64,000 bases of DNA, taken from positions 28,396 to 92,395 of the forward strand of contig JAFVHU010000090.1 of NCBI GenBank assembly GCA_017474385.1. The letters are read 5' to 3'. The number at the start of each line of letters is the position of its first letter. The stretch's first letter is position 1. A program made the position numbers and the translations under genes. Shown one piece after another: positions 9,861 to 29,274 of the stretch. The notes below the pieces were generated by a model that had not been told where the DNA came from, did not search any database, and worked only from the letters and a program-made list of their open reading frames with translations. The stretch is from Afipia sp. Its GTDB lineage: Bacteria > Pseudomonadota > Alphaproteobacteria > Rhizobiales > Xanthobacteraceae.

Positions 9861-9892
9861 GACGGAATGTCCTTTTCTTGTTTGTCTTGTTG

Positions 9893-11692: not shown

Positions 11693-11769
11693 GTCACACC
11701 TCGAATGGGTTAAGTTCGGGTGCAATCATCGCGAGGCGTGCAGGTCGGCTCAACGGCCTTGAATTTGTT

Positions 11770-11808: not shown

Positions 11809-11868
11809 TCAGATAGCTAGGGCGAAGTAAAAGTGAAAACGGTTTGCGCGAACCGGATGGCGCCACGG

Positions 11869-12808: not shown

Positions 12809-14977
12809 TTACAGCAGGCCCGCGCCGCGTGCCCACTTATATTTTGCGCCGAGCACTTCGACCGGAAGTTCGGTCGAGTAGGCGTAAGCCGGGATGCCGT
12901 TCTGATAGAGATATTCAGCGGCTTCCTCGACCTCGACGTCACCGGCCAGTGAGGCGACCATCGGCTTGCTGATGCCCTTGGCCTCCATCTCCTTCTTCAC
13001 CTCGACCATATTCCTGGCGAAAACCATCGGCGGCGTGACGATGGTGTGCCAGTAGCCGAGGATCAGCGAGTGAATGCGGTCATCGGACAGGCCGAGCTTC
13101 ACCGTGTTGACGTAGGTGATTGGCGGTTCGCCGCCGGTAATGTCCACCGGGTTGCCAGCCGCGCCGAACGGCGGGATGAACTTGCGGAACGCCGTATCGA
13201 GATCCGGCGGCATCGCCATCAGCGACAGGCCGTTGTCAACCACCGCGTCCGACAGAAGCACGCCTGAGCCGCCTGCGCCGGTGATGATAAGAACGTTCTC
13301 GCCCTTCGGGGTCGGCAGCACCGGAATGCCGCGCGCGAATTCGAGCAACTGCCGCAGCGAGCGGGCGCGAATGACGCCGGACTGCTTCAGCACGTCCTCA
13401 TAGATCTTGTCGTTACCGGCGAGCGCGCCGGTGTGCGACGAGGCCGCCTTGGCGCCGGCCGAGGTGCGGCCGGCCTTCAGAACGACGACCGGCTTCTTCT
13501 TGGAGACGCGCTTGGCGGCTTCCGCGAAGGCGCGGCCGTCCTTCAGATCTTCGCAATGCTGCGCGATGATCGTGGTGTTCGGGTCCTGTTCGAAGAAGGC
13601 GAGCAGATCGTCTTCGTCGATGTCGGACTTGTTGCCGAGACCGACGATCGCCGATACGCCCATCTTGGCGGAACGCGAGAAGCCGATGATGGCCATACCG
13701 ATGCCGCCCGACTGCGACGACAGGGCCGCCGAGCCCTTAACGTCATAAGCGGTGCAGAAGGTCGCGCAGAGATTCGATGGCGTATAATAGAAGCCATAGA
13801 TATTCGGCCCCATCAGACGCACATTATACTTCTTGCCGATCTCGACGATTTCTTCCTGCAACGCAGGCTCGTTCGCTTCGGCAAAACCCGACGGGATCAG
13901 GACGGCGCCGGGGATTTTCTTCTCGCCGCACTCGGTAAGCGCTGCGGCGACGAGTTTCGCAGGAATCGCGAAGACCGCGGTATCGATGGTGCCGGGAACG
14001 TCCTTGACGCTCTTGTAGGCCTTGATGCCCATGATCTCATCGGCCTTCGGGTGGATCGGGTAGATCTGACCCTTGTAGCCGCCGTTGATCAGGTTCTTCA
14101 TCACCGAGTTGCCGATCTTGCCGGCTTCGGCCGAAGCGCCGATCACGGCGACCGCCTTCGGCATCATGATGCGGTTCATCGCGGTGACGATTTCTTCGTT
14201 CGAGCGCGGAGCAGGGCGCGGTTTGTAATCGAAATCGACAACAATGCGCACGTCTGCGGCAATCGCGTCCTTCTTGGTGGCGAAAACCGGATTGAGATCG
14301 AGTTCGACGATTTCAGGGAAATCGCTGACAAGCTGCGAAACGTTGACGATGATGTCCGCAAGAGCCTCGCGGTTGACGGGATCGCCGCCGCGAACACCGT
14401 TCAGCATTTCGTGGGCCTGAATTCCGTCGAGCATCGACAGCGCATCGGCGTTGGTCGCCGGCGCGAGGCGGAAGGTGACGTCTTTCAGCACTTCGACCAG
14501 CACGCCGCCGAGGCCGAAGGCCACGAGCTTGCCGAACGAGCCGTCGGTGATCGAGCCGACGATGACTTCGGTGCCACCCAGCAGCATCTGCTGAACCTGG
14601 ATGCCTTCGATCTTGGCATCGGCCTTGTACTTCTTGGCGTTTGCCAGAATGGTCTCATAGGCTTTTTCAGCGTCGGCGGCGGTTTTCACGCCGACGATTA
14701 CGCCGCCTGCTTCGGTCTTGTGAAGAATGTCGGGGGAGACGATCTTCATGACCACCGGGAAACCCATGCCGGTCGCGATTTTCGCGGCTTCGGCGGCGGA
14801 CTTTGCCACGCCTTCCTTGGGAACCGGAATTCCGTAAGCGTCACAGACCAGTTTGCCTTCCGGCGCCGTCAGGCTGGTGCGTTTGTCGGCCTTTACGGTG
14901 TCGAGAATTTTCCGAACTTCGGCCTTTGCCTGTTGTCCGACGTCGATCTTGCGAGCTGCGTCCTGCGAATGAGCCAT
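12809..14977 (-). CDS. ADP-forming-type acyl-CoA synthetase (fused beta-alpha), candidate oxalyl-CoA synthetase
   Basis: A 722-residue acetate-CoA ligase (ADP-forming) superfamily protein with the order ATP-grasp first (residues about 30-240; GFPVVMKIVSPDILHKTEAGGV), then CoA-binding Rossmann domain (about 265-380; AVAVIGAS, PSGFAE), then the ligase domain. The last carries His515 in SSHTGALAG, which aligns with the phospho-histidine of this family. It is divergent from the GntR regulator and shares two operator palindromes with it. In an oxalate island it plausibly activates oxalate to oxalyl-CoA independently of Frc; acetate or another acid is possible. Confidence 0.85.
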   Translation of the reverse strand: MAHSQDAARKIDVGQQAKAEVRKILDTVKADKRTSLTAPEGKLVCDAYGIPVPKEGVAKSAAEAAKIATGMGFPVVMKIVSPDILHKTEAGGVIVGVKTAADAEKAYETILANAKKYKADAKIEGIQVQQMLLGGTEVIVGSITDGSFGKLVAFGLGGVLVEVLKDVTFRLAPATNADALSMLDGIQAHEMLNGVRGGDPVNREALADIIVNVSQLVSDFPEIVELDLNPVFATKKDAIAADVRIVVDFDYKPRPAPRSNEEIVTAMNRIMMPKAVAVIGASAEAGKIGNSVMKNLINGGYKGQIYPIHPKADEIMGIKAYKSVKDVPGTIDTAVFAIPAKLVAAALTECGEKKIPGAVLIPSGFAEANEPALQEEIVEIGKKYNVRLMGPNIYGFYYTPSNLCATFCTAYDVKGSAALSSQSGGIGMAIIGFSRSAKMGVSAIVGLGNKSDIDEDDLLAFFEQDPNTTIIAQHCEDLKDGRAFAEAAKRVSKKKPVVVLKAGRTSAGAKAASSHTGALAGNDKIYEDVLKQSGVIRARSLRQLLEFARGIPVLPTPKGENVLIITGAGGSGVLLSDAVVDNGLSLMAMPPDLDTAFRKFIPPFGAAGNPVDITGGEPPITYVNTVKLGLSDDRIHSLILGYWHTIVTPPMVFARNMVEVKKEMEAKGISKPMVASLAGDVEVEEAAEYLYQNGIPAYAYSTELPVEVLGAKYKWARGAGLL

Positions 14978-15115: not shown

Positions 15116-15134
15116 TTGGCATTTGGTATGCCAA
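15116..15134. promoter_or_regulatory. GntR-type operator copy 1 (TTGGCAT-N5-ATGCCAA)
   Basis: Perfect 7-bp arms around the spacer TTGGT, in the divergent region between the acyl-CoA ligase and the FCD-GntR gene, 138 bp before the ligase start. It matches six other sites in this window (consensus TGGYAT-N5-ATRCCA). Probable binding site of the GntR protein encoded at 15272. Confidence 0.75.
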
Positions 15135-15196
15135 GAACCATCTTTGTCAAGCCTCTTCGCTAGACCTTGGGAGAGCTGCCAGCCTGCTTGACATGC

Positions 15197-15213
15197 TGGC
15201 ATCTGGTATGCCA
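15197..15213. promoter_or_regulatory. GntR-type operator copy 2, autoregulatory
   Basis: TGGCAT-CTGGT-ATGCCA, ending 58 bp before the GntR start. A TTGACA hexamer lies just 5' (15188-15193), so the site would overlap the promoter core. It is 81 bp from copy 1, both sites facing the divergent promoters, which fits autoregulation and shared control. Confidence 0.78.
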
Positions 15214-15271
15214 AGAACTTGGACAACGCTTCCGTGGTATACAGCCCCTCTGGAAGAGAGGGAGATGATTC

Positions 15272-15997
15272 ATGGTTACTCAGAAAATATCGAAGGCACC
15301 ATTGAATGAGCAGGACATTGCGATCGTTCGCATTGCGCCTGAGGCAAGTTTCAAAAACAAGGCCTATGACGCTTTGAAAGAAGCCATCCTCAAAATGGAC
15401 ATCTACGCTAGCCCAGAGCCCGTCATGCTCGACGAGCGAGCGCTGTCTGAACATCTGGGTGTCAGCCGCACGCCGATCCGCGAAGCAATCGCGATGCTGG
15501 AGCAGGATGGTTTCGTCAAGACGGTTCCACGCCGCGGCATTGTGGTCGTGCGCAAGACCAAGGCCGAAATCGTGGACATGATCCGCGCATGGGCTGCGCT
15601 CGAAAGTATGGCCGCGCGTCTCATCACGACCACGGCGCGCAAAAAAGACATTTCGGCGCTGCGCAACTTCTTCAAGGATTTCAACAAGGATCGTCTCCCG
15701 CAGGATCACATCCAAGAGTACTCCAAGGCGAACATCGCGTTCCATCAGGCGCTGATTTCGCTGAGCGAGTCGCAGGTTTTGGTCGATATGACCAATGACA
15801 TTCTGTTGCACGTGCGCGGCTACCGGCAGTTGACGATCGGCCGGGAAGAACGCACCGCAGTGTCCCTGCCGGAACATCTTGCCATCATCGAAGCGCTCGA
15901 GGAGCGCGATACCGAGCTCGCTGAAAAGCGCGCCCGCGACCATACGCTTGGGCTTGCGACTTACGTCGAAACCCACGGACAGGAAATCTTTACGTAG
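15272..15997 (+). CDS. GntR family regulator with FCD domain, probable oxalate regulon regulator
   Basis: A 241-residue protein. The N-terminal winged helix has [32 protein letters not shown] and RRGIVVV, the standard GntR DNA-reading region at about 45-100. The C-terminal FCD ligand domain (about 105-230) holds the metal/acid-binding pattern: [13 protein letters not shown] and the C-terminal [13 protein letters not shown] with RARDHTLG. It is preceded by its own putative operator and lies directly upstream of oxc. A local regulator of the oxalate genes, perhaps sensing oxalate, glyoxylate or a CoA ester. Confidence 0.88.
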
Positions 15998-16034
15998 ACC
16001 AAACGACCAAAAAAAGAGACTAGGGAGGCCACCG

Positions 16035-17777
16035 ATGCTGACGGCAGCGAGTAAGTTAGAGGCGACGACTGCGAATGATGCGGAGCAGGAGCTGACAGAT
16101 GGTTTTCATCTGATCATCGACGCGCTCAAACTTAACGGCCTCAATACGATCTACGGCGTGCCCGGTATTCCGATCACGGACTTCGGCCGTATGGCGCAAG
16201 CGGAAGGCATTCGTGTTCTTTCGTTTCGTCACGAACAGAATGCCGGCTACGCCGCGTCGATTGCAGGCTTCCTGACAAAGAAGCCGGGCGTCTGTTTGAC
16301 GGTATCGGCGCCGGGCTTCCTCAACGGCCTCACCGCGCTCGCCCACGCCACGACCAACTGCTTCCCGATGATTCTGATTTCCGGCTCGTCGGAACGCGAA
16401 ATCGTCGACCTTCAGCAGGGCGACTACGAAGAAATGGATCAGCTCGCAGTCGCGAAGCCGCTGTGCAAGGCGGCGTTTCGCGTGCTGCACGCGCAGGACA
16501 TCGGCATCGGCGTTGCGCGCGCGATCCGCGCTGCGGTTTCGGGGCGTCCGGGCGGTGTCTATCTCGATCTGCCGGCGAAGCTGTTCGGGCAGGTGATGAA
16601 TGCGGACGCCGGCAAAAAGTCGCTGGTAAAAGTCATCGATGCGGCGCCGGCGCAGATTCCGGCTCCCGAATCGGTGAAGCGCGCGCTCGATGTGCTCAAG
16701 TCGGCGAAGAAGCCGCTCATTATCCTCGGCAAGGGCGCAGCTTACGCGCAGGCCGATGATGAGATCCGTACTCTGATCGAGAAGAGCGGCATTCCATTCC
16801 TGCCGATGAGCATGGCCAAGGGCCTTCTGCCTGACACACATCCGCAGTGCGCCGGTGCGGCGCGCTCCACAGTGCTGAAGGATTCCGACGTCGTCATGCT
16901 GATCGGGGCCCGCCTCAACTGGCTGCTGTCCCACGGCAAGGGCAAGACATGGGGCGACGCGCCGAAGAAGTTCATCCAGATCGACATCGAGCCGAAGGAA
17001 ATGGACTCCAACGTCGAGATCGTCGCACCAGTGGTCGGCGATATCGGCTCGTGCGTCTCGGCACTCGTGCAGGGCATGGGCGGTAACTGGCCGGCCCCGC
17101 CGGCGGACTGGACCAAAACAGTTCAGACCAAGCGCGACGATAACGTTGCCAAAATGGCGCCGCGCCTGATGAACAACAACTCGCCGATGGACTACCACGG
17201 CGCGCTCGGCGTTCTGCGCACCATCATCAAGGAGCGTCCCGACGCGATCCTTGTCAACGAAGGCGCAAACACCCTCGATCTCGCGCGCGGCATCATCGAC
17301 ATGTATCAGCCGCGCAAGCGCATCGACGTCGGCACCTGGGGCATCATGGGCATCGGCATGGGTTATTCCATCGCCGCCGCGATTGAGACCGGCAAGCCGG
17401 TGCTCGCGGTCGAAGGTGACAGCGCATTCGGCTTCTCCGGCATGGAGGTCGAGACGATCTGCCGCTACAAGCTGCCGGTCTGTGTCGTGATCTTCAACAA
17501 TGACGGCATCTACCGCGGCACCGACGTCAATCCCTCTGGCGGCTCGGACGTCGCGCCTACGGTGTTCGTAAAGGGCGCGCGTTACGACAAGATGATGGAG
17601 GCCTTCGGCGGCGTCGGAGTCAACGCAACGACCCCCGATGAGTTGAAGCGCGCGGTCAACGCCGCTATGGACTCGGGCAAGCCGACGCTCATCAATGCGG
17701 TGATCGATCCGGCTGCGGGCAGCGAAAGCGGCCGCATCGGCAATCTCAATCCACAAAGCGTCTTGAAGAAGAAATGA
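16035..17777 (+). CDS. oxc: Oxalyl-CoA decarboxylase
   Basis: A 580-residue ThDP enzyme converting oxalyl-CoA to formyl-CoA and CO2. The start ATG at 16035 follows GGGAGG; upstream in-frame codons overlap the GntR gene and are rejected. Features: [14 protein letters not shown] and [10 protein letters not shown] with catalytic Glu67, the central ADP/CoA-binding domain, ThDP motif [15 protein letters not shown] followed by NNDGIYRG, and a flexible lysine-rich C-terminus. About the length of characterised Oxc proteins (564-568). It is followed 92 bp later by frc, completing the core oxalate cycle. Confidence 0.96.
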
Positions 17778-17869
17778 TTGGTCACACGGCTGGGTGCATG
17801 TCGCTCCCTGCCATTTTCAGTCCTCGCACTCGGCGTCAGAAGGCGTCGACCGATACGGAGTATTAGACG

Positions 17870-19150
17870 ATGACACAGGCGCTGAAGGGCGTTCGGATTC
17901 TCGATTTCACCCACGTTCAGTCAGGGCCGACGTGCACGCAACTGCTGGCATGGTTCGGCGCCGACGTGATCAAGGTGGAGCGTCCCGGCGTAGGTGACAT
18001 CACCCGCGGTCAGCTCATGGATGTTCCCAATGCGGACAGCCTCTATTTCACGATGCTGAACCACAACAAGCGCTCGATCACGCTCGACACCAAGAACCCG
18101 AAGGGCAAGGAAGTCCTCACCGAGTTGATGAAGAAGTGCGACGTGCTGGTCGAGAATTTCGGTCCGGGTGTGCTGGATCGCATGGGCTTTCCTTGGGAAA
18201 CCATCCAGAAGATCAATCCGAAGCTCATCGTGGCATCGATCAAGGGTTTCGGCCCCGGTCCGTATGAGGATTGCAAGGTCTACGAGAACGTCGCGCAGTG
18301 CACCGGCGGTGCTGCATCGACCACCGGTTTCCGCGATGGTCTTCCTCTGGTGACGGGTGCGCAGATCGGCGATAGCGGCACCGGCCTGCATCTCGCGCTT
18401 GGTATTGTCACCGCGCTTTATCAGCGTTCGACCACCGGCAAGGGCCAGAAGGTCACTGCGGCAATGCAGGACGGCGTGCTCAACCTGGCGCGCGTCAAGA
18501 TGCGCGACCAGCAGCGTCTCGCCCACGGTCCGCTCAAGGAATACAGCCAGTTTGGCGAAGGCATTCCGTTCGGCGACGCGGTTCCGCGCGCCGGCAACGA
18601 TTCCGGCGGTGGTCAGCCCGGCCGCATCCTGAAGTGTAAGGGCTGGGAGACCGATCCGAACGCTTACCTCTATTTCATCACCCAGGCTCCGGTTTGGGAA
18701 AAGATCTGCGATGTGATCGGCGAGCCCGGCTGGAAGACGCACCCGGACTACGCCAAGCCGGCGGCGCGTCTGCCGCGCTTGAATGAGATTTTCGGACGCA
18801 TCGAACAGTGGACCATGACCAAGACCAAGTTCGAGGCGATGGAAATTCTCAACAAGGACGACATTCCGTGCGGTCCGATTCTGTCGATGAAGGAAATTTC
18901 CGAGGACAAGTCTCTCTATGCCACCGGTACACTCGTCGAAGTCGATCATCCAACTCGCGGCAAGTACATTTCGGTCGGTAATCCGATCAAACTATCGGAC
19001 AGCCCGACTGTGGTGACGCGCTCGCCACTGCTGGGCGAGCACACCGACGAGATCCTGAAGCAGGTCTTGGGCTTCAATGACAATCAGGTTGCTGAGACCC
19101 ACAATTCGGGTGCTCTCTCGCCACCCCGCAAAGTCGAAGCAGCCGAGTAA
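17870..19150 (+). CDS. frc: Formyl-CoA:oxalate CoA-transferase
   Basis: A 426-residue class III CoA-transferase that moves CoA from formyl-CoA (or succinyl-CoA) to oxalate. It starts [16 protein letters not shown] with Gln17; Asp168 in [11 protein letters not shown] corresponds to the catalytic aspartate (Asp169 in the Oxalobacter enzyme). The glycine loop [10 protein letters not shown], which guards the active site, is at about 200-225. Length matches Oxalobacter Frc (428). Follows oxc in one unit and ends in a strong terminator. It generates the oxalyl-CoA used by Oxc. Confidence 0.96.
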
Positions 19151-19173
19151 GTCATCTAACTTGCGAGACCAAA

Positions 19174-19201
19174 GGCCGGCGAATTCCGCCGGCCTTTTTT
19201 T
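19174..19201 (+). terminator. Rho-independent terminator after frc
   Basis: A GC-rich stem (GGCCGGC / GCCGGCC) with a short loop, followed by seven T's, 24 bp after the frc stop codon. It ends the gntR-oxc-frc unit. Confidence 0.88.
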
Positions 19202-19325
19202 GTGGTCTTTAGATACCTTAAAGCCGTTGATACTGTGTGGGAAAGTTGAGACATTTCGTCGCGTCCGAGGTTGATGTTGCGATGCACTATCGAAAATGCT
19301 GCTATGCAAAATATCGGATTGAATC

Positions 19326-19342
19326 TGGTATCTGGTATACCT
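19326..19342. promoter_or_regulatory. GntR-type operator copy 3
   Basis: TGGTAT-CTGGT-ATACCT, one mismatch from the consensus TGGYAT-N5-ATRCCA, with the same CTGGT spacer as copy 2. It ends 62 bp before the start of a 45-residue small protein gene that has its own terminator. Confidence 0.72.
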
Positions 19343-19404
19343 AGATTGGCCATGACGCAGCGCGATGCCAGCGCTGAATTCATTGGTTCCGAAAGGCCCT
19401 TCCC

Positions 19405-19542
19405 ATGTCCAAGACTGCTTCCATCGGCTTCGCTTCTTCAAACGGGCTGTTCCGTCAGCTGATTGCTTTCGTTGATAGTTTCCTGATGAAGAGCGCCCAG
19501 ATCTCCGCCAAGAATGGCGATCTGCCGCGGTTCGGACTCTGA
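19405..19542 (+). CDS. 45-residue small protein in the oxalate regulon
   Basis: A short ORF, starting MSKTASIGFASSNGLFRQLI and ending SAKNGDLPRFGL. It has one amphipathic/hydrophobic helix (LFRQLIAFVDSFLMKSAQI) and no cysteines. It sits alone between an operator of the regulon (62 bp upstream of its ATG, the same distance as for sucC) and a rho-independent terminator 60 bp downstream, so it looks like a dedicated monocistronic gene rather than chance. No family recognised. It could be a membrane-associated or protein-binding accessory to Oxc, Frc or transport. A weak ribosome site (AAAGG) lies about 10 bp before the ATG. Confidence 0.68.
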   Translation: MSKTASIGFASSNGLFRQLIAFVDSFLMKSAQISAKNGDLPRFGL

Positions 19543-19604
19543 GGATTAAGTTACTGAGAGCTCGCATATAATCGCGAACGTCATCTTTGATGATGTCATG
19601 AAAG

Positions 19605-19629
19605 GCCCCGGTTTTCTGGGGCTTTTTTT
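19605..19629 (+). terminator. Terminator after the 45-residue ORF
   Basis: Stem GCCCC / GGGGC with an 8-base loop followed by seven T's. It delimits the small-protein transcript from the TTT transporter unit. Confidence 0.82.
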
Positions 19630-19695
19630 GTTGTGCGAGTACACTGGCCGATACCGCAGTGCCGCGCAGCGGTGTCTAGAATAACTCTTGTGTCC

Positions 19696-19712
19696 TGGCA
19701 TATCGCATACAA
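19696..19712. promoter_or_regulatory. GntR-type operator copy 4
   Basis: TGGCAT-ATCGC-ATACAA, one mismatch in the right arm. It ends 62 bp before an ATG at 19775 and lies upstream of the tripartite transporter genes. Confidence 0.68.
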
Positions 19713-19774
19713 CGATGCGTCTCAGGCAGCAGCTGTCAGTCTTCAATAGAACAGCGCGCCTTGGGAGAGGGACC

Positions 19775-19933
19775 ATGGCTGATACCGTTCTCGCGGTGTC
19801 CAGGCGGCTGCGCCGAAAGGCGGATGGCGGGCCATGGCTGTTGGCGCGAACTTCCCCGCAACGATTTTACCTGACCGGTTGCAGCGACGTGGCTGTGAAG
19901 TTGCCATGCAGCGTGCATCGGAACCAGCCATGA
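19775..19933 (+). CDS. Possible 52-residue small protein or leader ahead of the TTT transporter
   Basis: The ORF begins MADTVLAVSRRLRRKADGG and is basic, with two cysteines late in the sequence. Support: a strong ribosome site (GGGAGAGG 4 bp before ATG), and a start exactly 62 bp after an operator copy, the spacing seen for two other genes of the regulon. Against: codon content is unremarkable, no family is recognised, and it ends 133 bp before the next gene. It could be a leader peptide or a decayed gene. Confidence 0.38.
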   Translation: MADTVLAVSRRLRRKADGGPWLLARTSPQRFYLTGCSDVAVKLPCSVHRNQP

Positions 19934-20066
19934 CTACTCTTCACGAACATTCCTGGAGGCAGGCGAACGAACGTCACTAGGGATCGAACTCCGCAGGCTG
20001 CCGCAAGGCAGATTTTGGAATTAAGCCGCCGTTGAGCGGCGTGAAACAACGGGTGGGAGAAACGCA

Positions 20067-21086
20067 ATGATGTGGTCGTCTTATCGAACGTTAGGTCTTG
20101 CACTGGGTGTTGGAGCTTCGCTGGGCGCAGGTGTCGCATCCAGCCCCGCTTCGGCGGCATGGGAGCCGACCCGGCCGGTGGAGATCGTTGTCCCAGCAGG
20201 CACCGGAGGCGGCGCGGATCAGATGGCCCGCACCATCCAGGGCATTATCACCAAGCACAACCTGATGAAGCAGCCGCTGGTGGTGGTGAACAAGGCTGGC
20301 GGCGCCGGTGGTGAAGGTTTCCTTGATGTCAAAGGTTCAGCAGGCAACCCGCACAAGTTGGTGATTACCTTGTCCAACCTTTTCACGACGCCATTGGGAA
20401 CCGGCATTCCATTCAGCTACAAGGATCTCACGCCGGTCGCGATGATGGCGCTCGATGAATTCATCCTCTGGGTGAACGCGGACAGCCCCTACAAGTCCGT
20501 GAAGGACTACATCGAGGCCGTGAAGGCGAAACCCGGTGAGTTCAAGATGGGCGGCACCGGATCGAAGCAGGAAGACCAGATCATCACTGTTGCGATCGAG
20601 AAAGCGTCCAACACCAAGTTCACCTACATCCCATATCGCGGCGGTGGTGAAGTTGCGGTCCAGCTCGTCGGCAAGCATGTCGATTCCACGGTCAACAATC
20701 CGATCGAAGCTGTCGCGCAATGGCGTGGTGGAGCTGTCCGCCCGCTCTGCGTGTTCGATGCCAAGCCGCTCCCCTACAAGGACGCAATCGCCGACGGAAA
20801 GTCATGGGGCGACATTCCGACGTGCAAATCGCAAGGACTCGATGTCGAGTACGTGATGCTGCGCGGGTTCTTCACATCGCCGAAAGCGACCAAAGAGCAG
20901 GTCGACTATTACGTGGATGTATTCAAGAAAGTTCGTGAAACGCCTGAATGGCAGAGCCTGATGAAGGACGGCGCCTTCAATCAGACCATGATGGTCGGTT
21001 CTGAGTATTCGGCGTGGGTCGATAACGAACAGAATCGACACCAGGCGTTGATGAAAGATGCCGGCTTCCTGGCTGCACCACAATAA
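20067..21086 (+). CDS. Tripartite tricarboxylate transporter (TTT) substrate-binding protein
   Basis: A 339-residue Bug/TctC-family periplasmic receptor. It has a signal peptide (LGLALGVGASLGAGVASS, cleavage after ASA near residue 30), then WEPTRPVEIVVPAGTGGGAD, the carboxylate-binding VNKAGGAGGEG loop, FKMGGTGSKQEDQ and YIPYRGGGEVAVQL. It delivers a carboxylic acid to the TctAB membrane complex encoded next. The operator upstream puts it under the oxalate regulator, so oxalate or a related short dicarboxylate is the likely ligand, which is an inference. Confidence 0.9.
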   Translation: MMWSSYRTLGLALGVGASLGAGVASSPASAAWEPTRPVEIVVPAGTGGGADQMARTIQGIITKHNLMKQPLVVVNKAGGAGGEGFLDVKGSAGNPHKLVITLSNLFTTPLGTGIPFSYKDLTPVAMMALDEFILWVNADSPYKSVKDYIEAVKAKPGEFKMGGTGSKQEDQIITVAIEKASNTKFTYIPYRGGGEVAVQLVGKHVDSTVNNPIEAVAQWRGGAVRPLCVFDAKPLPYKDAIADGKSWGDIPTCKSQGLDVEYVMLRGFFTSPKATKEQVDYYVDVFKKVRETPEWQSLMKDGAFNQTMMVGSEYSAWVDNEQNRHQALMKDAGFLAAPQ

Positions 21087-21151
21087 CTTCAACGACAGAT
21101 GCTGCCGGCGGACAGAGCTCCGCCGGCGAAAGCTTCAGTGTGGGGGAAAAT

Positions 21152-21658
21152 ATGAGCGAGCATTCTTCTGGAGTTGGCCAGCGCGGACCGTCGCATCGGT
21201 GGACGGAGTTCGGCGTCGGTGTGTTTTGCATCCTGTTCGGCGTGATCACGATTATCGGCAGCATGAAAGCCGGAGCCGGGTGGGGACCGGATGGTCCCAA
21301 GTCCGGATTTTTTCCCTTTTATGTCGGCATCATCATCGTGCTGGCGAGTTGCGTGAATTGCATCCAGCTTCTGATGGAGCCTGATGACGGTCAGCTTTTC
21401 GCGGATTGGGGACAGCTTCGCCAGGTCCTCTCCGTCTTCATACCGACCACCATTTACTGTCTGAGCATCCCGTATCTCGGCATCTACGTCGCCTCGGTGA
21501 TTCTCATTGCCTTGTTCATGAAGTGGCTGGGTAAATACCCGTGGACCACGACGGCTGCCGTGGCGCTCGGCACGCCGTTCGCGGTCTACATGTTCTTCGA
21601 AAAATGGTTCCTCATTCCGCTGCCAAAAGGCCCGCTGGAAGAGTTGCTTGGTCTCTAG
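21152..21658 (+). CDS. TTT family small membrane subunit (TctB-like)
   Basis: A 168-residue protein with four predicted membrane segments, starting MSEHSSGVGQRGPSHRWTEF. The ATG at 21152 was chosen over an in-frame GTG at 21140 because a GGGGG ribosome site directly precedes it. It has the TctB-typical GPKSGFFPFYVGIIIVLAS segment and an IPYLGIYVASVILIALFMKW helix. It lies between the receptor and the large TctA subunit and forms part of the same secondary transporter. Confidence 0.87.
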   Translation: MSEHSSGVGQRGPSHRWTEFGVGVFCILFGVITIIGSMKAGAGWGPDGPKSGFFPFYVGIIIVLASCVNCIQLLMEPDDGQLFADWGQLRQVLSVFIPTTIYCLSIPYLGIYVASVILIALFMKWLGKYPWTTTAAVALGTPFAVYMFFEKWFLIPLPKGPLEELLGL

Positions 21659-21687
21659 AAATTCCTGCTGCGGCTGAGGACATTGAT

Positions 21688-23199
21688 ATGGAAGAAATCG
21701 TAAATCTGTTTCACGGCTTCGCGACGGTACTGCAGCCGTTCAACATCCTGGTCATGGTTATCGGGATCGTTCTCGGTGTGGTGATCGGAGTGCTGCCCGG
21801 TCTTGGCGGCGCGAATGGCGTGGCGATCCTGCTGCCACTGACGTTCAGCATGCCTCCGACATCGGCGATCATCATGTTGTCGTGCATCTACTGGGGCGCG
21901 CTGTTCGGTGGCGCCATCACGTCGGTGCTGTTCAACATACCCGGAGAGCCGTGGTCCGTGGCCACGACATTCGACGGTCATCCGATGGCGCAGAAGGGCA
22001 AGGCCGGTGAGGCGCTCACTGCGGCATTCACATCGTCGTTCGTCGGCGCATTGTTTGCCGTGATCATGATCACGTTGGTTGCGCCGCTGGTGGCGAAGTT
22101 CGCGCTTCAGTTCGGGCCCGCAGAAAAATTCGCGGTGTTCTTCATCGCCTTCTGCAGTTTCATCGGCATGGGCAAGGAGCCGCCGTTCAAAACAATTGTC
22201 GCGATGATGATCGGCTTCGCGCTGGCGGCAGTTGGGCTTGACAGCATCACGGGACAATTGCGCCTGACGTTCGGATTTTCCGAAATGCTCAGCGGATTCG
22301 ACTTCCTGATCGCGGTCATCGGTCTCTTTGGAATCGGCGAGATTCTTCTCACCATGGAGGAGGGACTCAATTTCAGAGGCAAGCCGGCCAAGATCAATGC
22401 AAGGGTGGTGTGGGAGACATGGAAAGAACTCCCGCGCTACTGGGCGACGTCATTGCGCTCGTGTCTCATCGGCGTGTGGATGGGCGTGTCGCCCGCCGGT
22501 GCGACACCTGCATCGTTCATGAGCTATGGCATCGCCAAGCGCATGTCGAAGCAGGGCAAGAATTTCGGCAAGGGTGAAATCGAGGGCGTGGTTGCGCCCG
22601 AGACCGCCGCGCATGCGGCAGGCACTGCTGCGCTGTTGCCCATGCTGTCGCTCGGCGTACCGGGATCGCCGACGGCTGCGGTGCTGCTCGGTGGCTTGCT
22701 GATCTGGGGATTGCAGCCCGGGCCGCTGCTGTTTGTCGAGCAGAAGGACTTCGTATGGGGCCTGATTGCCAGCATGTATCTCGGCAATTTCGTCGGATTG
22801 ATCGTGGTACTGACCTGCGTGCCGCTGTTCGCCGCAATCCTGCGTATTCCGTTCAGCATCATCGCGCCTGTCATTCTGGTTCTGTGCGCAATCGGTGCGT
22901 ACACCGTGCACAACAACACCTTTGACGTGGTGATGATGATGGTGTTCGGCGTGGTCGGTTACGTCATGAAGAAGTGTAACTATCCGATGGCGCCGCTCGT
23001 TCTCGCCATCGTGCTTGGCGACAAGGCGGAGGAGGCATTCCGGCAAGCATTGCTTGGATCGCAGGGCAGCCTCAGCGTCTTCTTCTCCAACGGTCTTGTC
23101 GGATCGATCATGACCCTGGGATTGATTGCTCTGTTCTGGCCCTTGATCTCGAACGGATGGACGCGGCTGTCGTCGCGCGCACCGAAAACGGCAATGTAA
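21688..23199 (+). CDS. TTT family large membrane subunit (TctA-like)
   Basis: A 503-residue permease with about twelve membrane segments. The two signature regions are present: GVLPGLGGANGVAILLPLTF near residue 35-55 and the mirrored ETAAHAAGTAALLPMLSLGVPGS near 300-325. The HGFATVLQPFNILVMVIG start is typical. It is driven by an ion gradient and works with TctB and the binding protein encoded just upstream. A strong palindromic terminator follows. Confidence 0.93.
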   Translation: MEEIVNLFHGFATVLQPFNILVMVIGIVLGVVIGVLPGLGGANGVAILLPLTFSMPPTSAIIMLSCIYWGALFGGAITSVLFNIPGEPWSVATTFDGHPMAQKGKAGEALTAAFTSSFVGALFAVIMITLVAPLVAKFALQFGPAEKFAVFFIAFCSFIGMGKEPPFKTIVAMMIGFALAAVGLDSITGQLRLTFGFSEMLSGFDFLIAVIGLFGIGEILLTMEEGLNFRGKPAKINARVVWETWKELPRYWATSLRSCLIGVWMGVSPAGATPASFMSYGIAKRMSKQGKNFGKGEIEGVVAPETAAHAAGTAALLPMLSLGVPGSPTAAVLLGGLLIWGLQPGPLLFVEQKDFVWGLIASMYLGNFVGLIVVLTCVPLFAAILRIPFSIIAPVILVLCAIGAYTVHNNTFDVVMMMVFGVVGYVMKKCNYPMAPLVLAIVLGDKAEEAFRQALLGSQGSLSVFFSNGLVGSIMTLGLIALFWPLISNGWTRLSSRAPKTAM

Positions 23200-23275
23200 G
23201 TAAAGAGAAAGAGGGTCTGCGTTTCGGATACGAGGTGCCGGTCGCAAAGCTTCTCTGAAAGATTATGGTCCTATC

Positions 23276-23305
23276 AAATGGCTCCGGCGATCGCCGGAGC
23301 CATTT
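23276..23305. terminator. 30-bp perfect palindrome terminator after tctA-like gene
   Basis: Arms of 15 bp (AAATGGCTCCGGCGA and its exact complement) with no loop required, starting 77 bp after the TTT operon and ending in TTTC. Likely terminator separating the TTT and OxlT units. Confidence 0.75.
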
Positions 23306-23376
23306 CTTGTTCCGCAAACCTATGACGAAGGTGCATAGCTAAAAAGTCGCAGTTCCCTCGAATACCTCTTGCAATC

Positions 23377-23393
23377 TGGCATATCATATACCA
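23377..23393. promoter_or_regulatory. GntR-type operator copy 5
   Basis: TGGCAT-ATCAT-ATACCA with fully consensus arms. Ends 60 bp before the OxlT-like gene start. Confidence 0.78.
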
Positions 23394-23453
23394 GCCTCCG
23401 CGCCTGTAGCGCCTGCCGAACTTTAACAGAGCAAGGGCGCACTCGGAGGAACG

Positions 23454-24749
23454 ATGACGGATACGGTTCATACGGCGGCGGCCCCGGCGGCTGCACGAGT
23501 CAGCGATACCTATCGCTGGGTTCAGTTGGCGATCGGCGTTGGCGCCATGGTGATGATCGCGAACTATCAATACGGCTGGACGTTCTTCGTCCCCGACATT
23601 CAGCAAAAATTCGGATGGGATCGCGCGTCGATCCAGTGGGCATTCACGTTGTTCGTGCTGTTCGAAACGTGGCTGGTCCCCGTCGAAGGCTGGTTCGTCG
23701 ACAAGTACGGTCCACGCATCGTTGTTCTTGTCGGCGGTATTCTTTGTGCGATCGGCTGGGCGATCAATGCACAGGCGACAACGCTTAACGGTTTTTATCT
23801 CGGCATGATCATCGCGGGCATCGGTGCCGGCGGCGTTTACGGCACCTGCGTCGGCAACGCGCTGAAGTGGTTTCCCGACAAGCGCGGTCTTGCTGCAGGT
23901 ATCACCGCGGCTGGCTTTGGTGCGGGCTCCGCGCTCACGGTCGCGCCGATCCAGGCGATGATCAAGAACGACGGCTTCCAGAACACCTTTCTTTATTTCG
24001 GTCTGGGACAGGGCATCATCATCGTGATCCTCTCGTTCCTGATGTTCGCGCCGAAAGCGGGACAAGTGCCGCCGCCTGTGATGAATGCAGCTCTTCAGCA
24101 GACGCGCCGTAACTACGCGCCGACTGAAGTCCTCCGGCACCCGATTTTCTGGCTGATGTACTTCATGTTCGTCATTGTCGGCGCGGGTGGATTGATGGTG
24201 ACTGCGAACCTCAAGCCGATCGCCGTGGACTGGAAAGTCGATAGCGTTCCTGTCACGCTGATGGCGATGACGATGACCGCGGTGACGTTCGCCGCGACCA
24301 TCGATCGCGTGCTCAACGGTTTGACACGCCCGTTCTTCGGTTGGATCTCCGATATGATCGGCCGTGAGAACACGATGTTCATCGCGTTCGGCATGGAAGG
24401 CGTCGGCATCTACATGCTCTACCTCTGGGGTCACGATCCGGTCTGGTTCGTGCTGCTGTCGGGCTTCGTGTTCTTCGCCTGGGGTGAGATCTACTCGCTC
24501 TTCCCGTCGACCTGCACGGACACCTTCGGATCGAAGTTCGCGACCACGAATGCGGGCCTGCTGTACACCGCGAAAGGAACGGCGGCGCTGCTCGTTCCCG
24601 TCGCGAACTACATGCAGCAAAGCTCGGGCACGTGGGACATGGTCTTCATCGTGGCGGCCGGTGCGAACATTCTCGCCTCGCTCCTCGCGATCATTGTGCT
24701 GAAGCCGTGGCGCAAGGTTGTGGTCGCCAAGTCGCAACAGATGGCCTGA
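23454..24749 (+). CDS. oxlT: Oxalate/formate antiporter-type MFS carrier (OxlT-like)
   Basis: A 431-residue major facilitator with twelve predicted membrane helices. It has the MFS loop-2 motif region [10 protein letters not shown] and its repeat [11 protein letters not shown]. Arg285 ([15 protein letters not shown], helix 8) and Lys374 ([12 protein letters not shown], helix 11) are placed like the two basic residues that bind oxalate in Oxalobacter OxlT (Arg272, Lys355). It would exchange external oxalate for formate made by Oxc/Frc. It has its own operator upstream and terminator downstream. Similar carriers can move other small carboxylates. Confidence 0.9.
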
Positions 24750-24776
24750 TCGATCGACGACTAACGCTCTCGAAAG

Positions 24777-24806
24777 ACGCGCCCATCTCCGGATAGGCGC
24801 GTTTTT
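24777..24806 (+). terminator. Terminator after oxlT-like gene
   Basis: Stem ACGCGCC / GGCGCGT with a 12-base loop followed by five T's, 27 bp after the stop codon. Confidence 0.82.
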
Positions 24807-24863
24807 CTTTTCTCCGCCCGCCGCAAAAGCGATTGACTCACGGCAATTCCTAGGCATTCTCAT

Positions 24864-24880
24864 TGGTATACATAATACCT
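24864..24880. promoter_or_regulatory. GntR-type operator copy 6
   Basis: TGGTAT-ACATA-ATACCT, one mismatch from consensus. Ends 62 bp before the sucC-like start. Confidence 0.75.
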
Positions 24881-24911
24881 CGGGGGATTTTTTCGCCCGA
24901 AGAACGCTCGC

Positions 24912-24923
24912 CCGGTATACCGG
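24912..24923. promoter_or_regulatory. Perfect palindrome CCGGTATACCGG before sucC-like gene
   Basis: A 12-bp perfect palindrome 19 bp before the start codon. It contains the same GGTATACC core as the upstream operators but without the 5-bp spacer, so it may be an accessory regulatory site or chance. Confidence 0.35.
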
Positions 24924-24942
24924 CGCGCATTGGGAGGACGTC

Positions 24943-26145
24943 ATGAATATCCACGAGTACCAAGGAAAGGCCGTTCTAAAGGGCTTTGGAGCGCCGGTGT
25001 CGGCAGGCGCGCCAGCGTTCACTGTCGATGAAGCGATCGCCGCGGCGAAGTCGCTGCCAGGCCCGGTCTATGTTGTGAAATCGCAGATCCATGCCGGCGG
25101 TCGCGGCAAGGGTAAGTTCAAGGGATTGCCGGCAGACGCGAAGGGCGGCGTGCGGCTGGCGAAGTCGATCGATGAAGTCGCAAGCTTCGCCAAGGAAATG
25201 CTCGGACGCACACTGGTGACGGTGCAGACCGGACCTGCGGGCAAGCAGGTCAACCGGCTTTACATTGAGGACGGCTCGGACATCGAGAAGGAATTCTATC
25301 TCTCCATGCTGGTCGATCGCGAAACCTCGCGCATCGCATTCGTGGTGTCGACCGAAGGCGGTATGGACATCGAGAAGGTGGCGCACGACACGCCGGAGAA
25401 GATCGTGACGTTCTCCGTCGATCCGGCGACCGGCGTGATGGCGCATCACGGCCGCAAGGTTGCGCAGGTTCTGGGCCTGAGCGGCGATCTCGCCAAGCAG
25501 GCGGAGAAACTCACCGCGCAACTTTACAACGCCTTCCTGTCCACCGACATGGCGATGCTGGAGATCAACCCGCTGGTGGTGACAAAGCAGGGCGAGCTTC
25601 GTTGCCTCGACGCCAAGATCAATTTCGATTCCAACGCGCTCTATCGCCACCACGAGCTGGTGAAGCTGCGCGACCTGACCGAAGAGGACGAAAAAGAAAT
25701 CGAGGCGTCGAAGTACGATCTGAACTATATCGCGCTCGAAGGCACCATCGGCTGCATGGTCAACGGCGCCGGACTCGCGATGGCGACCATGGACATCATC
25801 AAGCTCTACGGCGCGACGCCGGCGAACTTCCTCGATGTTGGCGGCGGCGCGACCAAGGAAAAGGTTGCGGCAGCCTTCAAGATCATCACCTCCGATCCGA
25901 ACGTGAAGGGCATCCTGGTCAACATCTTCGGCGGCATCATGCGTTGCGACGTCGTCGCCGAAGGCGTGGTTGCCGCGGTGCGCGAGGTCGGCCTCAGCGT
26001 GCCGCTGGTGGTGCGCCTGGAAGGGACCAATGTCGAACTCGGCAAGAAGGTCATTGCCGAATCCGGATTGAATGTCGTCGCCGCAGACGATCTCGACGAT
26101 GCCGCGCAGAAGATCGTTCGCGCCACACGAAAGGAAGCCGCGTAA
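24943..26145 (+). CDS. sucC: Succinate-CoA ligase (ADP-forming) beta subunit, oxalate-island copy
   Basis: A 400-residue ATP-grasp subunit starting [16 protein letters not shown] after TGGGAGG. It has [52 protein letters not shown] and [15 protein letters not shown], all SucC hallmarks. The sequence looks closer to SucC than to the malate-CoA ligase MtkA. It sits under an oxalate-type operator rather than with a TCA-cycle operon, so it is probably a second copy. It may supply succinyl-CoA as CoA donor for Frc or recycle succinate. Its stop shares a base with the sucD start (TAATG). Confidence 0.9.
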
Positions 26146-27029
26146 TGTCCATCCTCATCGACAGCAATACCAAGGTGATTTGCCAAGGTTTTACGGGCAA
26201 AAACGGCACCTTTCACTCGGAGCAGGCAGCACTCTACGGCACGCGGATGGTCGGCGGCACGTCGCCCGGCAAGGGCGGCTCTTCGCATCTCGGCCTGCCG
26301 GTGTTCGACACGGTGGCGCAGGCACGCGAGGCAACCGGCGCCGACGCCAGCGTGATCTACGTTCCGCCGCCGGGTGCTGCGGATGCGATCTGCGAAGCGA
26401 TCGATGCCGAAGTGCCGTTGATCGTCTGCATCACCGAAGGCATTCCGGTGACCGACATGGTGCGCGTGAAGCGCGCGCTCGAAGGTTCAAGCTCGCGGCT
26501 GATCGGTCCGAATTGTCCCGGCGTGATGACGGCGGGCGAATGCAAGATCGGCATCATGCCCGGAAACATTTTCAAGAAGGGCAATGTGGGAATCGTGTCG
26601 CGCTCCGGCACGCTGACCTATGAAGCCGTGTATCAGACGTCCGCTGAAGGCCTCGGTCAGACCACGGCTGTCGGCATCGGCGGCGATCCGGTAAAGGGCA
26701 CCGACTTCATCTCGATGCTTGAACTGTTTCTTGCCGATCCCGACACGAAGTCGATTGTGATGATCGGCGAGATCGGCGGCTCGTCGGAAGAAGACGCTGC
26801 GCAGTTCATCAAGGATGAAGCAAAGCACGGCCGCAAGAAGCCGATGGTTGGTTTCATTGCCGGACGCACAGCACCTCCAGGCCGCCGCATGGGCCACGCC
26901 GGCGCGATCATCTCCGGCGGGAAGGGTGATGCCGAATCCAAGATCGCCGCGATGGAAGCGGCCGGCATTCGCGTCTCGCCGTCGCCCGCGCGTCTCGGCA
27001 AGACATTGGTGGATGTATTGAAGGGTTAA
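26145..27029 (+). CDS. sucD: Succinate-CoA ligase (ADP-forming) alpha subunit, oxalate-island copy
   Basis: A 294-residue CoA-binding subunit beginning [19 protein letters not shown]. It has GGTSPGKGG, the active-site His in [40 protein letters not shown] and [12 protein letters not shown]. Translationally coupled to sucC. Together they form the alpha2beta2 or alphabeta enzyme making succinyl-CoA from succinate, ATP and CoA. The location suggests a role in priming oxalate activation; substrate preference for another dicarboxylate cannot be excluded. Confidence 0.91.
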
Positions 27030-27097
27030 GTTCTCGCGTGAGAGCGATCGCACGAAGACTGACGTCAATCTGTTTTCATCAACAACCAATCATCGAA

Positions 27098-27127
27098 ATG
27101 CCCGGGCTTGTCCCGGGCATTTTTTTT
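27098..27127 (+). terminator. Terminator after sucD
   Basis: Stem AATGCCCGGG / CCCGGGCATT with a 5-base loop followed by a run of T's, 69 bp after the sucD stop. Confidence 0.88.
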
Positions 27128-27148
27128 GGGCGCTTGATGTTTGTACAG

Positions 27149-27267
27149 CGTCGTCCCGGCGAAGGCCGGGACCCATACTCCCGATGCTTGGTGTCGTGTG
27201 AGATGAGGCAACGTTTTTTTGATTGAGAGTGCGGTGGTTATGGGTCCCGGCCTTCGCCGGGACGACG
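27149..27267. repeat. Dispersed palindromic repeat pair (GTCCCGGC-type), inverted
   Basis: Two inverted copies of a short element with the core TCGTCCCGGCGAAGGCCGGG, each itself a hairpin, separated by about 60 bp. A related element recurs at 29120-29253. The 557-bp gap from 27030 to 27587 holds this repeat, the sucD terminator and operator copy 7; no gene was seen. Confidence 0.75.
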
Positions 27268-27484
27268 ATTGAACCGCATACAGTCCGTTCAACGAGAATC
27301 CAGCGCTATCTCAACACCTTGATAGCCAATCAAAGCACGTATCGCTGCATAAGGCAAAGTCGTGACGAACTCCGCTGCAAAGGGCGAAGTGGTGACGGCA
27401 TGGTGGCCGCCGTTTCGTTCTCGAAAATGCTCGGTCCGCCGCAGGCATGCCACTGCAAATTAGGAATTCGTTCCGATTGACTCT

Positions 27485-27501
27485 TGGCATAATGTATACC
27501 A
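27485..27501. promoter_or_regulatory. GntR-type operator copy 7
   Basis: TGGCAT-AATGT-ATACCA with fully consensus arms, just after a TTGACT hexamer (27477-27482). It lies 86 bp before the CBS-domain gene start and marks the CBS/PanE-like unit as part of the regulon. Confidence 0.75.
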
Positions 27502-27587: not shown

Positions 27588-28031
27588 ATGAGAGTCGGAG
27601 ACATCCTGAACAGGAAGAGCACCCGTATCGCCACCGTCCGCATGAACGAAACCGTCGCCACCGCCGCGCGGCTGCTGCGCAACGACAATGTCGGCGCGCT
27701 TGTCGTGAAGGACGTCTGCCGCACCGAAGGCAATGTTGCCGTCGGCATGTTCTCGGAACGCGATGTCGTGCGCGCTGTCTCCGAGCACGGGCAGGCCGGC
27801 CTCGCCATGCCGGTTTCCGCGCTGATCTCGGTGCAGAAGCTGGTGTCGTGCCAATCCACCGACTCGATCGAGCACGTGCGCGAACTGATGATCGACAATC
27901 ACATCCGGCATGTGCCAGTGATCGACGACCACACACTGATCGGCGTGATCAGCATGCGCGATATCAACGCCACAGACGGCCTTGTTGCCATTCCCGAACC
28001 CCAAGCGACCCAACCTGCGTTTGTTGTCTGA
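27588..28031 (+). CDS. CBS domain pair protein
   Basis: A 147-residue cytoplasmic protein consisting of two CBS motifs and little else (MRVGDILNRK, ATVRMNETVATAARLL, VGMFSERDVVRAV, then DSIEHVRELMIDNHIRHVPV, IGVISMRDI). An AGGAGG site lies about 7 bp before the ATG; an in-frame GTG at 27585 is also possible. CBS pairs bind adenosine nucleotides or NAD-type ligands. Located downstream of an oxalate-type operator and upstream of the PanE-like gene, it may sense energy state in this pathway. Role unproven. Confidence 0.85.
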   Translation: MRVGDILNRKSTRIATVRMNETVATAARLLRNDNVGALVVKDVCRTEGNVAVGMFSERDVVRAVSEHGQAGLAMPVSALISVQKLVSCQSTDSIEHVRELMIDNHIRHVPVIDDHTLIGVISMRDINATDGLVAIPEPQATQPAFVV

Positions 28032-28123
28032 CGGTTCTCCCTGCAGAGCGCGGTCACATGATCTCCCCGGTGGTGTGATTGCGCTCTGTTCTTTTTTCGC
28101 CTCGCGATATTTCGGGAAACACC

Positions 28124-29098
28124 ATGAAGATTTGTATTTACGGCGCGGGCGCGATCGGAGGCTATCTCGGCGTGCAGCTCGCGCAGGCGGGTGCTGACGT
28201 CAGCCTGGTGGCGCGCGGCGCACATCTCGCAGCGATGAAGGCCAACGGCCTGAAACTTCTGATCGGCGACGAGGAGCGTGTGGTGCATCCGCGCTGCACC
28301 GACAATCCCGCCGAACTCGGTCCGCAGGATTACATCATCATCTGCCTCAAAGCCCATTCGATCACCGGCGTGATCGAGGCGATGCAGCCGCTACTCGGAC
28401 CGAAGACCCGCATCGTCACCGCGGTCAACGGCATTCCTTACTGGTACTTCTACAAGCACGGCAACGAGTGCGAAGGCTCGGCACTGGAGAGCATCGATCC
28501 CGGCGGCCGTCAGTGGAAAGAGCTGGGACCGGAGCGCGCCATCGGCTGCGTGGTCTATCCGGCGACCGAAATCGAAGCGCCCGGCGTCATCCGCCACGTC
28601 TACGGCGACCGCTTTCCGCTCGGCGAGCCTTCCGGCGAGAAGAGCGCCGATGTCGAGGCGCTGTCGGCGATGTTCGTCAAGGCCGGCCTCCAGGCTCCGG
28701 TGCTCGAGAACATCCGCGACGAAATCTGGCTCAAGCTGTGGGGCAACGTCTGCTTCAATCCGATCAGTGCGCTGACCCATGCCACGCTCGATGTGATCGG
28801 CAGCGATCCGGGCACGCGGGCGGTGGCGAAGTCCATGATGGTGGAAGCCCAGACCATCGCCGAGAAGTTCGGGATCAAGTTCCGCGTCGATGTCGAACGC
28901 CGTATCGAAGGCGCACGCAAGGTCGGCGCGCACAAGACCTCGATGCTTCAGGATCTCGAACGCAGCCGGCCGATGGAAATCGATCCGCTGGTCACCGTGG
29001 TTCAAGAGATGGGCACACTGTCGAAAATCCCGACACCGTCGATCGACATCGTGCTCGCGCTGGTGGCGCAGCGTGCCAAGATCGCGGAGTTATATTGA
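28124..29098 (+). CDS. 2-dehydropantoate 2-reductase family protein, candidate oxalyl-CoA reductase
   Basis: A 324-residue PanE/ApbA-family reductase. It has N-terminal GAGAIGGYLG NADP motif, Lys76 in CLKAHS, and the C-terminal domain with EIWLKLWGNVCFNPISAL and KTSMLQDLE. In Methylorubrum extorquens a PanE paralog (panE2) is reported, as I recall, to act as oxalyl-CoA reductase making glyoxylate. Here the gene lies in the oxalate island behind the CBS gene and an operator copy, so the same role is likely; it would link oxalyl-CoA to gcl-hyi-glxR. Ordinary pantothenate biosynthesis is the alternative. The ATG was taken at 28124 (MKICIYGAGA). Confidence 0.87.
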   Translation: MKICIYGAGAIGGYLGVQLAQAGADVSLVARGAHLAAMKANGLKLLIGDEERVVHPRCTDNPAELGPQDYIIICLKAHSITGVIEAMQPLLGPKTRIVTAVNGIPYWYFYKHGNECEGSALESIDPGGRQWKELGPERAIGCVVYPATEIEAPGVIRHVYGDRFPLGEPSGEKSADVEALSAMFVKAGLQAPVLENIRDEIWLKLWGNVCFNPISALTHATLDVIGSDPGTRAVAKSMMVEAQTIAEKFGIKFRVDVERRIEGARKVGAHKTSMLQDLERSRPMEIDPLVTVVQEMGTLSKIPTPSIDIVLALVAQRAKIAELY

Positions 29099-29119
29099 AC
29101 GGGTGACACAACTCCGCGG

Positions 29120-29253
29120 GTCGTCCCCGCGAAGGCGGGGACCCATACTCCCTGGATTATCGTTAGGTCTCGGGTCGTTGAAAGAATTGGTTGCGACATC
29201 AACGCATCGAACCGAGTTGAGTGGTTATGGGTCCCCGCCTTCGCGGGGACGAC
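29120..29253. repeat. Dispersed palindromic repeat pair, inverted
   Basis: Two facing copies of the core GTCCCCGCGAAGGCGGGGAC, related to the repeat at 27149-27267. The second copy ends about 20 bp before the FAH-family start codon. Confidence 0.72.
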
Positions 29254-29274
29254 GAATTACCTGGAGATTACGCC

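Follow-up and report, generated by a model that had tools for sequence, protein, structure and literature searches.

What switches oxalate use on in soil bacteria is the question raised by a 64,000-nucleotide stretch of Afipia sp. DNA (hereafter the window; contig JAFVHU010000090.1 of assembly GCA_017474385.1), in which copies of an inverted repeat, TGGYAT-N5-ATRCCA, lie among genes for oxalate uptake and breakdown (the island), together with a gene for a regulator of the FCD-GntR type. Our analysis indicates that the seven copies are very probably operators of this regulator, encoded at 15272-15997, and would mediate a repression, most likely released by oxalate or a derivative, of the island, of an unlinked formate dehydrogenase operon and of the regulator gene itself. 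Within the open-licence full-text literature, a scope that leaves most subscription papers outside, we found no transcriptional regulator described for the oxc/frc oxalate pathway; in a Pandoraea paper, the passages considered tie no GntR to oxalate genes. An operator conserved among soil and root-nodule bacteria would offer a direct starting point for learning how these organisms turn oxalate use on, and operator and regulator could supply an oxalate-sensing part.

A conserved inverted repeat at the oxalate island

A pattern search of the whole window at no more than one mismatch returned seven sites, all inside 15117-27501, comprising four with perfect arms (starting at 15117, 15197, 23377 and 27485) and three with one mismatch (19326, 19696 and 24864). 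An earlier note on this DNA had described the same seven sites, with 6-bp arms, a 5-bp spacer and the same division into perfect and imperfect copies, and had noticed none elsewhere in the window; all of this was confirmed except its first start, which is 15117 rather than 15116. Eight further matches occur at exactly two mismatches, one of them overlapping the first site, and the 15 matches at two mismatches or fewer compare with a mean of 4.34 and a maximum of 11 among 100 shuffles of the window.

The genome carrying the window (4.48 Mb in 162 contigs, 84% complete) contains 33 sites at up to one mismatch versus 6 for a reversed-pattern control, and five perfect sites versus none, with approximately 0.6 expected at 60% G+C. 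Seven of the 33 sites and four of the five perfect ones fall within the 12.4-kb island, corresponding to binomial P values of 5e-12 and 3e-10, respectively, under the assumption of site independence. A genome-wide scan had been named in the earlier note as the check for a motif equally frequent outside these promoters; no such equal frequency was seen, and the claim stands, as does the statement that the sites are intergenic and precede oxalate units, which holds for 7/7 on the basis of the identified genes. A mechanical test of overlap with open reading frames (ORFs) of at least 90 amino acids on either strand was dropped as a discriminator of island from off-island sites: 6 of the 7 island sites overlap such ORFs, and so do 23 of 25 off-island sites, a count that covers all 26 except C160:15846.

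Conservation was assessed in the best 80 of 200 relatives carrying an orthologous locus (at least 85% identity, 1.50 Mb), from Afipia, Tardiphaga, Bradyrhizobium, one Rhodopseudomonas metagenome-assembled genome and metagenome-assembled genomes named only to order or phylum. With a spacer of 5 bp these loci contain 235 perfect sites and 345 at no more than one mismatch, with at least one perfect site in 80/80 loci and two or more in 79; no spacer of 0-4 or 6-14 bp gave more than a single perfect site, and the counts at up to one mismatch were 2-80 for these. In 78 loci, two perfect sites lie in the gap between gntR and the divergent gene of an acyl-CoA ligase (acdAB), at a distance of 79-82 bp (76 loci) or 71 bp (2 loci), bearing out the earlier note's observation of two sites (operators 1 and 2) in the regulator's own divergent promoter. 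Locus L102 has two perfect sites with the ligase cut off, and L042 has one. The operator recurs before the transporter genes tctC and oxlT, a second oxlT-like gene, sucC and the gene of a CBS-domain protein, and 6 of the 345 matches lie inside genes recognised by 18 reference proteins, the only genes considered in this count.

Association with the regulator and with unlinked operons

Sites are found both at the regulator's own promoter and before neighbouring catabolic operons, the arrangement of an autoregulated regulon, and the distribution of perfect sites follows the regulator gene. In a survey of 100 genomes of the family (orthologues at 79-100% identity; matches counted at E <=1e-60), the 25 genomes with an orthologue carry 112 perfect sites between them, the 57 with a weaker homologue 60 and the 18 without a match 2; the reversed pattern was counted by hand 17 times in the same genomes. 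Fifteen of the 18 genomes without a GntR match also lack a match to frc, the formyl-CoA transferase gene, and the three that carry frc are fragmented assemblies in which, for at least two, frc lies no more than a few kb from a contig end. We also considered 26 distant homologue loci (approximately 45-63% identity; 30 loci minus four close orthologues or the own gene), in which the oxalyl-CoA decarboxylase gene oxc, at 72% identity or more, adjoins the regulator in 12 and a site with at most one mismatch is present in 16, perfect in 9 of these. The motif also serves other pathways: in L130, L132 and L138, homologous GntR genes with this motif adjoin a thiamine diphosphate (TPP) enzyme that shares only 25-26% identity with Oxc.

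The fifth perfect site of the genome belongs to a different contig; the operon that it precedes, at a distance of 44 bp from the start, runs on the opposite strand. The first gene of this operon has a tungsten formate dehydrogenase beta subunit as its PDB match (E 1.9e-294) and the second scores as a formate dehydrogenase alpha subunit above the NCBIfam cut-off, from which the site is predicted to precede an NAD-formate dehydrogenase operon, the last step of oxalate oxidation. The dehydrogenase subunit is present at 80% identity or more in 13 genomes of the family, our own included. An operator starts 58-160 bp upstream of it in 11/11 genomes with a GntR orthologue (10 perfect, 1 with one mismatch). 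The remaining genomes are G212, which has no GntR match and no operator there at up to two mismatches, and G240, which has a 59% GntR homologue and a two-mismatch site, with none at one mismatch or fewer (Fisher P 0.013 for orthologue against operator across the 13). Eight further genomes were reached through named loci; six have the formate dehydrogenase gene, with a perfect site before it in 6/6. Afipia clevelandensis, A. birgiae and Afipia sp. OHSU_II-C1 each contain five perfect sites, four in the island and one at formate dehydrogenase; in A. clevelandensis a single contig carries both island and dehydrogenase sites, separated by 2.1 Mb. A. massiliensis has three in the island, one at formate dehydrogenase and one unexplained. 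Two distant genera have tctCBA, operator, gntR, oxc, frc and fds together in a stretch of approximately 13 kb (2/2 loci read).

In Bradyrhizobium diazoefficiens, a protein set from arabinose-grown cells is reported to include products of frc, oxc, gcl and hyi and the NuoF-like blr2316 (passages of PMC5996035). This joint appearance fits co-regulation without proving it, and blr2316 or bll3137 is a candidate counterpart of the dehydrogenase subunit found here. The oxalate pathway described for that species shares frc, oxc, gcl, hyi and a NuoF-like protein with the system considered here, and the passages describing it name no regulator (PMC5996035, PMC4926349).

A further association concerns succinyl-CoA synthetase (sucCD). 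In eight genomes that possess two sucC copies, an operator precedes only the island-type one, at one mismatch in 6 genomes and at two mismatches in 2. Another eight possess a single sucCD, and in six of these a perfect operator lies in the gap between mdh and sucC of the tricarboxylic acid (TCA) cycle (Fisher P 0.007 for copy number against operator placement). G240, with an 80% copy lacking an operator and a 37% copy with a perfect site 171 bp upstream, was left out of this count. In Bradyrhizobium sp. BTAi1 and Tardiphaga robiniae, a perfect site likewise lies between these two genes. The earlier note had spoken of a local oxalate regulon: footprinting and co-occurrence support the regulon, and the operators at the unlinked formate dehydrogenase and, in several relatives, at TCA mdh/sucCD make the word local too narrow. 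Operator placement points to a formate dehydrogenase that would serve the oxalate pathway and suggests a role for sucCD in it.

Operator forms, promoter position and competing explanations

Two forms of the operator were distinguished. At the divergent promoter, 176/176 matches contain an inner 10-mer, TGGYATRCCA, giving three half-sites; 156 of these matches are perfect, and the remaining 20 in many cases overlap a perfect one. At the other listed promoters 3/151 matches contain the 10-mer; among ten-mers, 6/168 lie outside a 17-mer site. Because these matches had been selected by their outer arms, a second search started from the right arm alone, and it recovered the left arm at N5 with 0 or 1 mismatch upstream of CBS in 28/34, oxlT in 42/51 and tctC in 4/7 cases. 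The three-half-site form is also found before fds (G239, G032, G130, G230, G183 and G185 among several) and before mdh/sucC. The element common to all targets is more widely spaced than published FadR-type operators; what distinguishes the regulator's own promoter is the canonical inner palindrome.

The operators also keep a constant register to promoter elements. Among distinct sequences, TTG stands 8 bases before the operator at tctC (33/48), oxlT (36/42), the second oxlT (19/19) and CBS (26/30), 9 before at gntR (75/75, as TTGACA), 16 before at acdAB (63/75) and 30 before at sucC (7/9). At a distance of 17 bp from this -35 element, the T closing a CAnnnT hexamer is present in 91-100% of those tctC, oxlT, second-oxlT, CBS and sucC sequences. 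Since the operators lie mostly between -35-like and -10-like boxes, repression is the likeliest mode of action, and RNA polymerase should be excluded by an operator within the core promoter. In the absence of substrate, FCD-GntR would occupy the core promoters of its targets, blocking the polymerase, until an effector, most probably oxalate itself or one of its products, entered the FCD pocket and released the DNA. Release would turn on uptake (tctCBA, oxlT), CoA activation (frc, the acyl-CoA ligase, sucCD), decarboxylation (oxc) together with the CBS-panE unit, and the unlinked NAD-dependent formate dehydrogenase, which would oxidise the formate produced; through the divergent promoter, with its two sites approximately 80 bp apart, FCD-GntR would control its own gene. 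One regulator would probably switch the whole oxalate pathway on and off in this manner.

In the regulator protein, an N-terminal winged helix-turn-helix (PF00392, 47.0 bits versus a cut-off of 27) and a C-terminal FCD domain (PF07729, 77.5 versus 24.3) were identified, and none of 17 NCBIfam families of named regulators, including PhnR, NanR, CsiR, LldR and GlcC, scored above its curated cut-off, the best being PhnR with 95.6 bits against 271.5. PDB 6z74, which we take to be Atu1419, is among the best sequence matches, yet a weak one (48.7 bits); in this weak alignment, H158, H202, H224 and D102 correspond to H, H, H and D of that structure, and among 24 homologues H158 is invariant and H202 and H224 are retained in at least 90%. 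A metal site of three His and an Asn or Asp, a feature of part of the FCD subfamily, is described in passages of the Atu1419 paper (PMC7797058), and the alignment of three His and an Asp accordingly suggests a small carboxylate as a putative ligand of FCD-GntR.

Comparison with known systems places the shared element as a variant. Regulons of the FadR subfamily (FCD), as outlined in parts of PMC4494728, share with ours the helix-turn-helix plus FCD architecture, a palindrome ending in TGG/CCA, double sites in divergent promoters and accessory half-sites. They usually have 3 or 2 nucleotides between GT and AC, with exceptions including NanR, whereas the shared 17-mer has 9, hence its designation as a variant; the inner 10-mer would conform to the usual spacing. 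Atu1419 of Agrobacterium fabrum (VanR group; parts of PMC7797058) resembles FCD-GntR in domain class, in operators over or between promoter boxes and probably in a three-His-plus-Asp metal site, but binds a 10-mer, ATGTATACAT, and controls hydroxycinnamate genes. Escherichia coli NanR (parts of PMC8012715 and PMC4494728) has a half-site close to TGGTAT, and each divergent-promoter operator here likewise has more than two half-sites, but NanR recognises direct repeats in place of the inverted repeat shared here.

Several alternatives were weighed against FCD-GntR repression from the 17-mer. Chance clustering was rejected by the window shuffles, the genome-wide counts and the spacer specificity. 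A motif arising by chance or merely inherited as an intergenic repeat would profit from the large amount of sequence common to related loci, but flanking columns mostly diverge while the arms stay constant (the arms being partly set by the search itself), enrichment is confined to spacer 5 and the motif recurs at unlinked operons; the spacer test and the formate dehydrogenase sites effectively contradict this explanation, and its probability is negligible. That the true binder is another regulator, for example the BhcR-like IclR encoded at 11869-12720, draws on the presence of this IclR-type protein in the same island. Perfect sites track the GntR gene, however, and 39/80 orthologue loci have no iclR match, each with a perfect site (29 of the 39 include more than 8 kb on that side, and iclR may sit elsewhere in those genomes), from which we judge an IclR binder very improbable. 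The earlier note's choice of GntR as binder draws support from the footprinting, from the co-occurrence of perfect sites with gntR and from the lack of a formate dehydrogenase site in G212.

Two further alternatives concern what is bound and to what effect. The functional operator could be the 10-bp palindrome TGGYATRCCA, with the outer TGGYAT an accessory half-site only: all divergent-promoter matches contain it, accessory half-sites are described for GntR proteins (a section of PMC4494728) and Atu1419 binds a 10-mer (a section of PMC7797058). Its scarcity at the other promoters, the few ten-mers outside a 17-mer and the left arms recovered at N5 from the right arm alone make it a misfit at most target promoters, and as an operator common to all targets it was set aside; overall we regard this alternative as unlikely. 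Less likely still is that GntR binds the sites but activates, or does both, its effector-bound form aiding RNA polymerase. An activator too may require the fixed register of operator to -35, but a site that fills the ordinary 17-bp promoter spacer (gntR, tctC, oxlT, CBS) or lies past the promoter (sucC) usually hinders polymerase, and Atu1419 represses from palindromes over the -10 box or between -10 and -35 (a section of PMC7797058). A MerR-like twist of the spacer as a means of activation was discarded, given the ordinary 17-bp distance between the boxes.

A number of observations weigh against repression of an oxalate regulon by FCD-GntR. The 80 orthologue loci are close relatives, and their counts are therefore not independent; 10 of the 26 distant homologue loci have no site with at most one mismatch in the stretch searched; 17 distant formate dehydrogenase loci (66-70% identity) have none either, with 16 further matched genomes or fragments outside this count; and two of the eight single-sucCD genomes, G154 and G183, lack an operator in the mdh-sucC gap. 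The CA of the CAnnnT hexamer is supplied by the end of the operator itself (sucC excepted), gntR, acdAB and the window's own sucC promoter match the -10 element poorly, and we infer both binding by FCD-GntR and its effect on expression from sequence. Perfect sites without a visible oxalate link were also seen in L157, L159 and L160 (genus g99), where they adjoin recR-like and HPP-family-like genes (names judged by eye) and may belong to other GntR proteins.

A fuller scheme is advanced only tentatively, at a little under even confidence. Here the wide inverted repeat TGGYAT-N5-ATRCCA would be the basic operator of an FCD-GntR oxalate regulator, with the three-half-site form at its own promoter; the regulon would span uptake, CoA activation, decarboxylation and unlinked formate oxidation, and TCA mdh/sucCD would be recruited where an island sucCD is absent. 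Succinyl-CoA:oxalate CoA-transferase is a known activity. If the scheme is true, takeover of mdh/sucCD would make succinyl-CoA supply part of oxalate activation.

Gene content of the island

The gene identities given in the earlier note (FCD-GntR, tripartite transporter, oxlT, sucCD, CBS-panE-like, acyl-CoA ligase and a small ORF) agree with our assignments. The regulator gene (P0001, 241 amino acids, 15272-15997, + strand) is followed in the same direction by oxc (16035-17777) and frc (17870-19150). Upstream lie operator 1 (15117-15133, acdAB side), which contains the inner 10-mer (TGGTATGCCA), and, 80 bp from it on the gntR side, operator 2 (15197-15213), which also contains an inner 10-mer. 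TTGACA at 15188-15193 (+) is the likely -35 of the gntR-oxc-frc promoter and has the same offset in 75/75 distinct relatives. The divergent acdAB (12809-14977, - strand) is a predicted ADP-forming acyl-CoA ligase, so named here with no substrate assigned.

The following units are all on the + strand. Operator 3 (19326-19342, one mismatch) stands directly before a conserved 45-amino-acid ORF (19405-19542), which gave no match in a Pfam search and is kept between frc and the transporter genes in 40/80 loci, several loci ending before that place. Operator 4 (19696-19712, one mismatch) precedes tctC, tctB and tctA (20067-23199), encoding a tripartite tricarboxylate-type transporter, and operator 5 (23377-23393, perfect), flanked or overlapped by TTGCAA at 23369 and CAGCCT at 23392 with 17-bp spacing, precedes oxlT (23454-24749), encoding an oxalate/formate antiporter. 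Operator 6 (24864-24880, one mismatch) precedes the sucCD unit (24943-27029; sucC 24943-26145, sucD 26145-27029). Operator 7 (27485-27501, perfect), with TTGACT at 27477 and CAATCT at 27500, again 17 bp apart, precedes the CBS-panE unit (27588-30048), comprising a CBS-domain protein (27588-28031), a PanE-like reductase (28124-29098) and an FAA-hydrolase-family protein (29221-30048). Between sucD and operator 7, at 27140-27275 of the window, inverted copies of a GC-rich element (gtcgtcccggcgaaggccgggacc...) were seen by eye.

B. erythrophlei GAS478 (G251) has another pair of perfect sites at a distance of 85 bp (C4:3163943 and 3164028), perhaps marking a second gntR divergent promoter. Behind the acyl-CoA ligase, at 8163-12720 of the window on the - strand, lie genes for the BhcR-like IclR, a gcl-like TPP enzyme, a hyi-like triosephosphate isomerase (TIM) barrel and a glxR-like dehydrogenase; together they are probably a unit for glyoxylate assimilation, which a second regulator may control. 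In G240 (L154), a perfect operator precedes a gcl-like gene.

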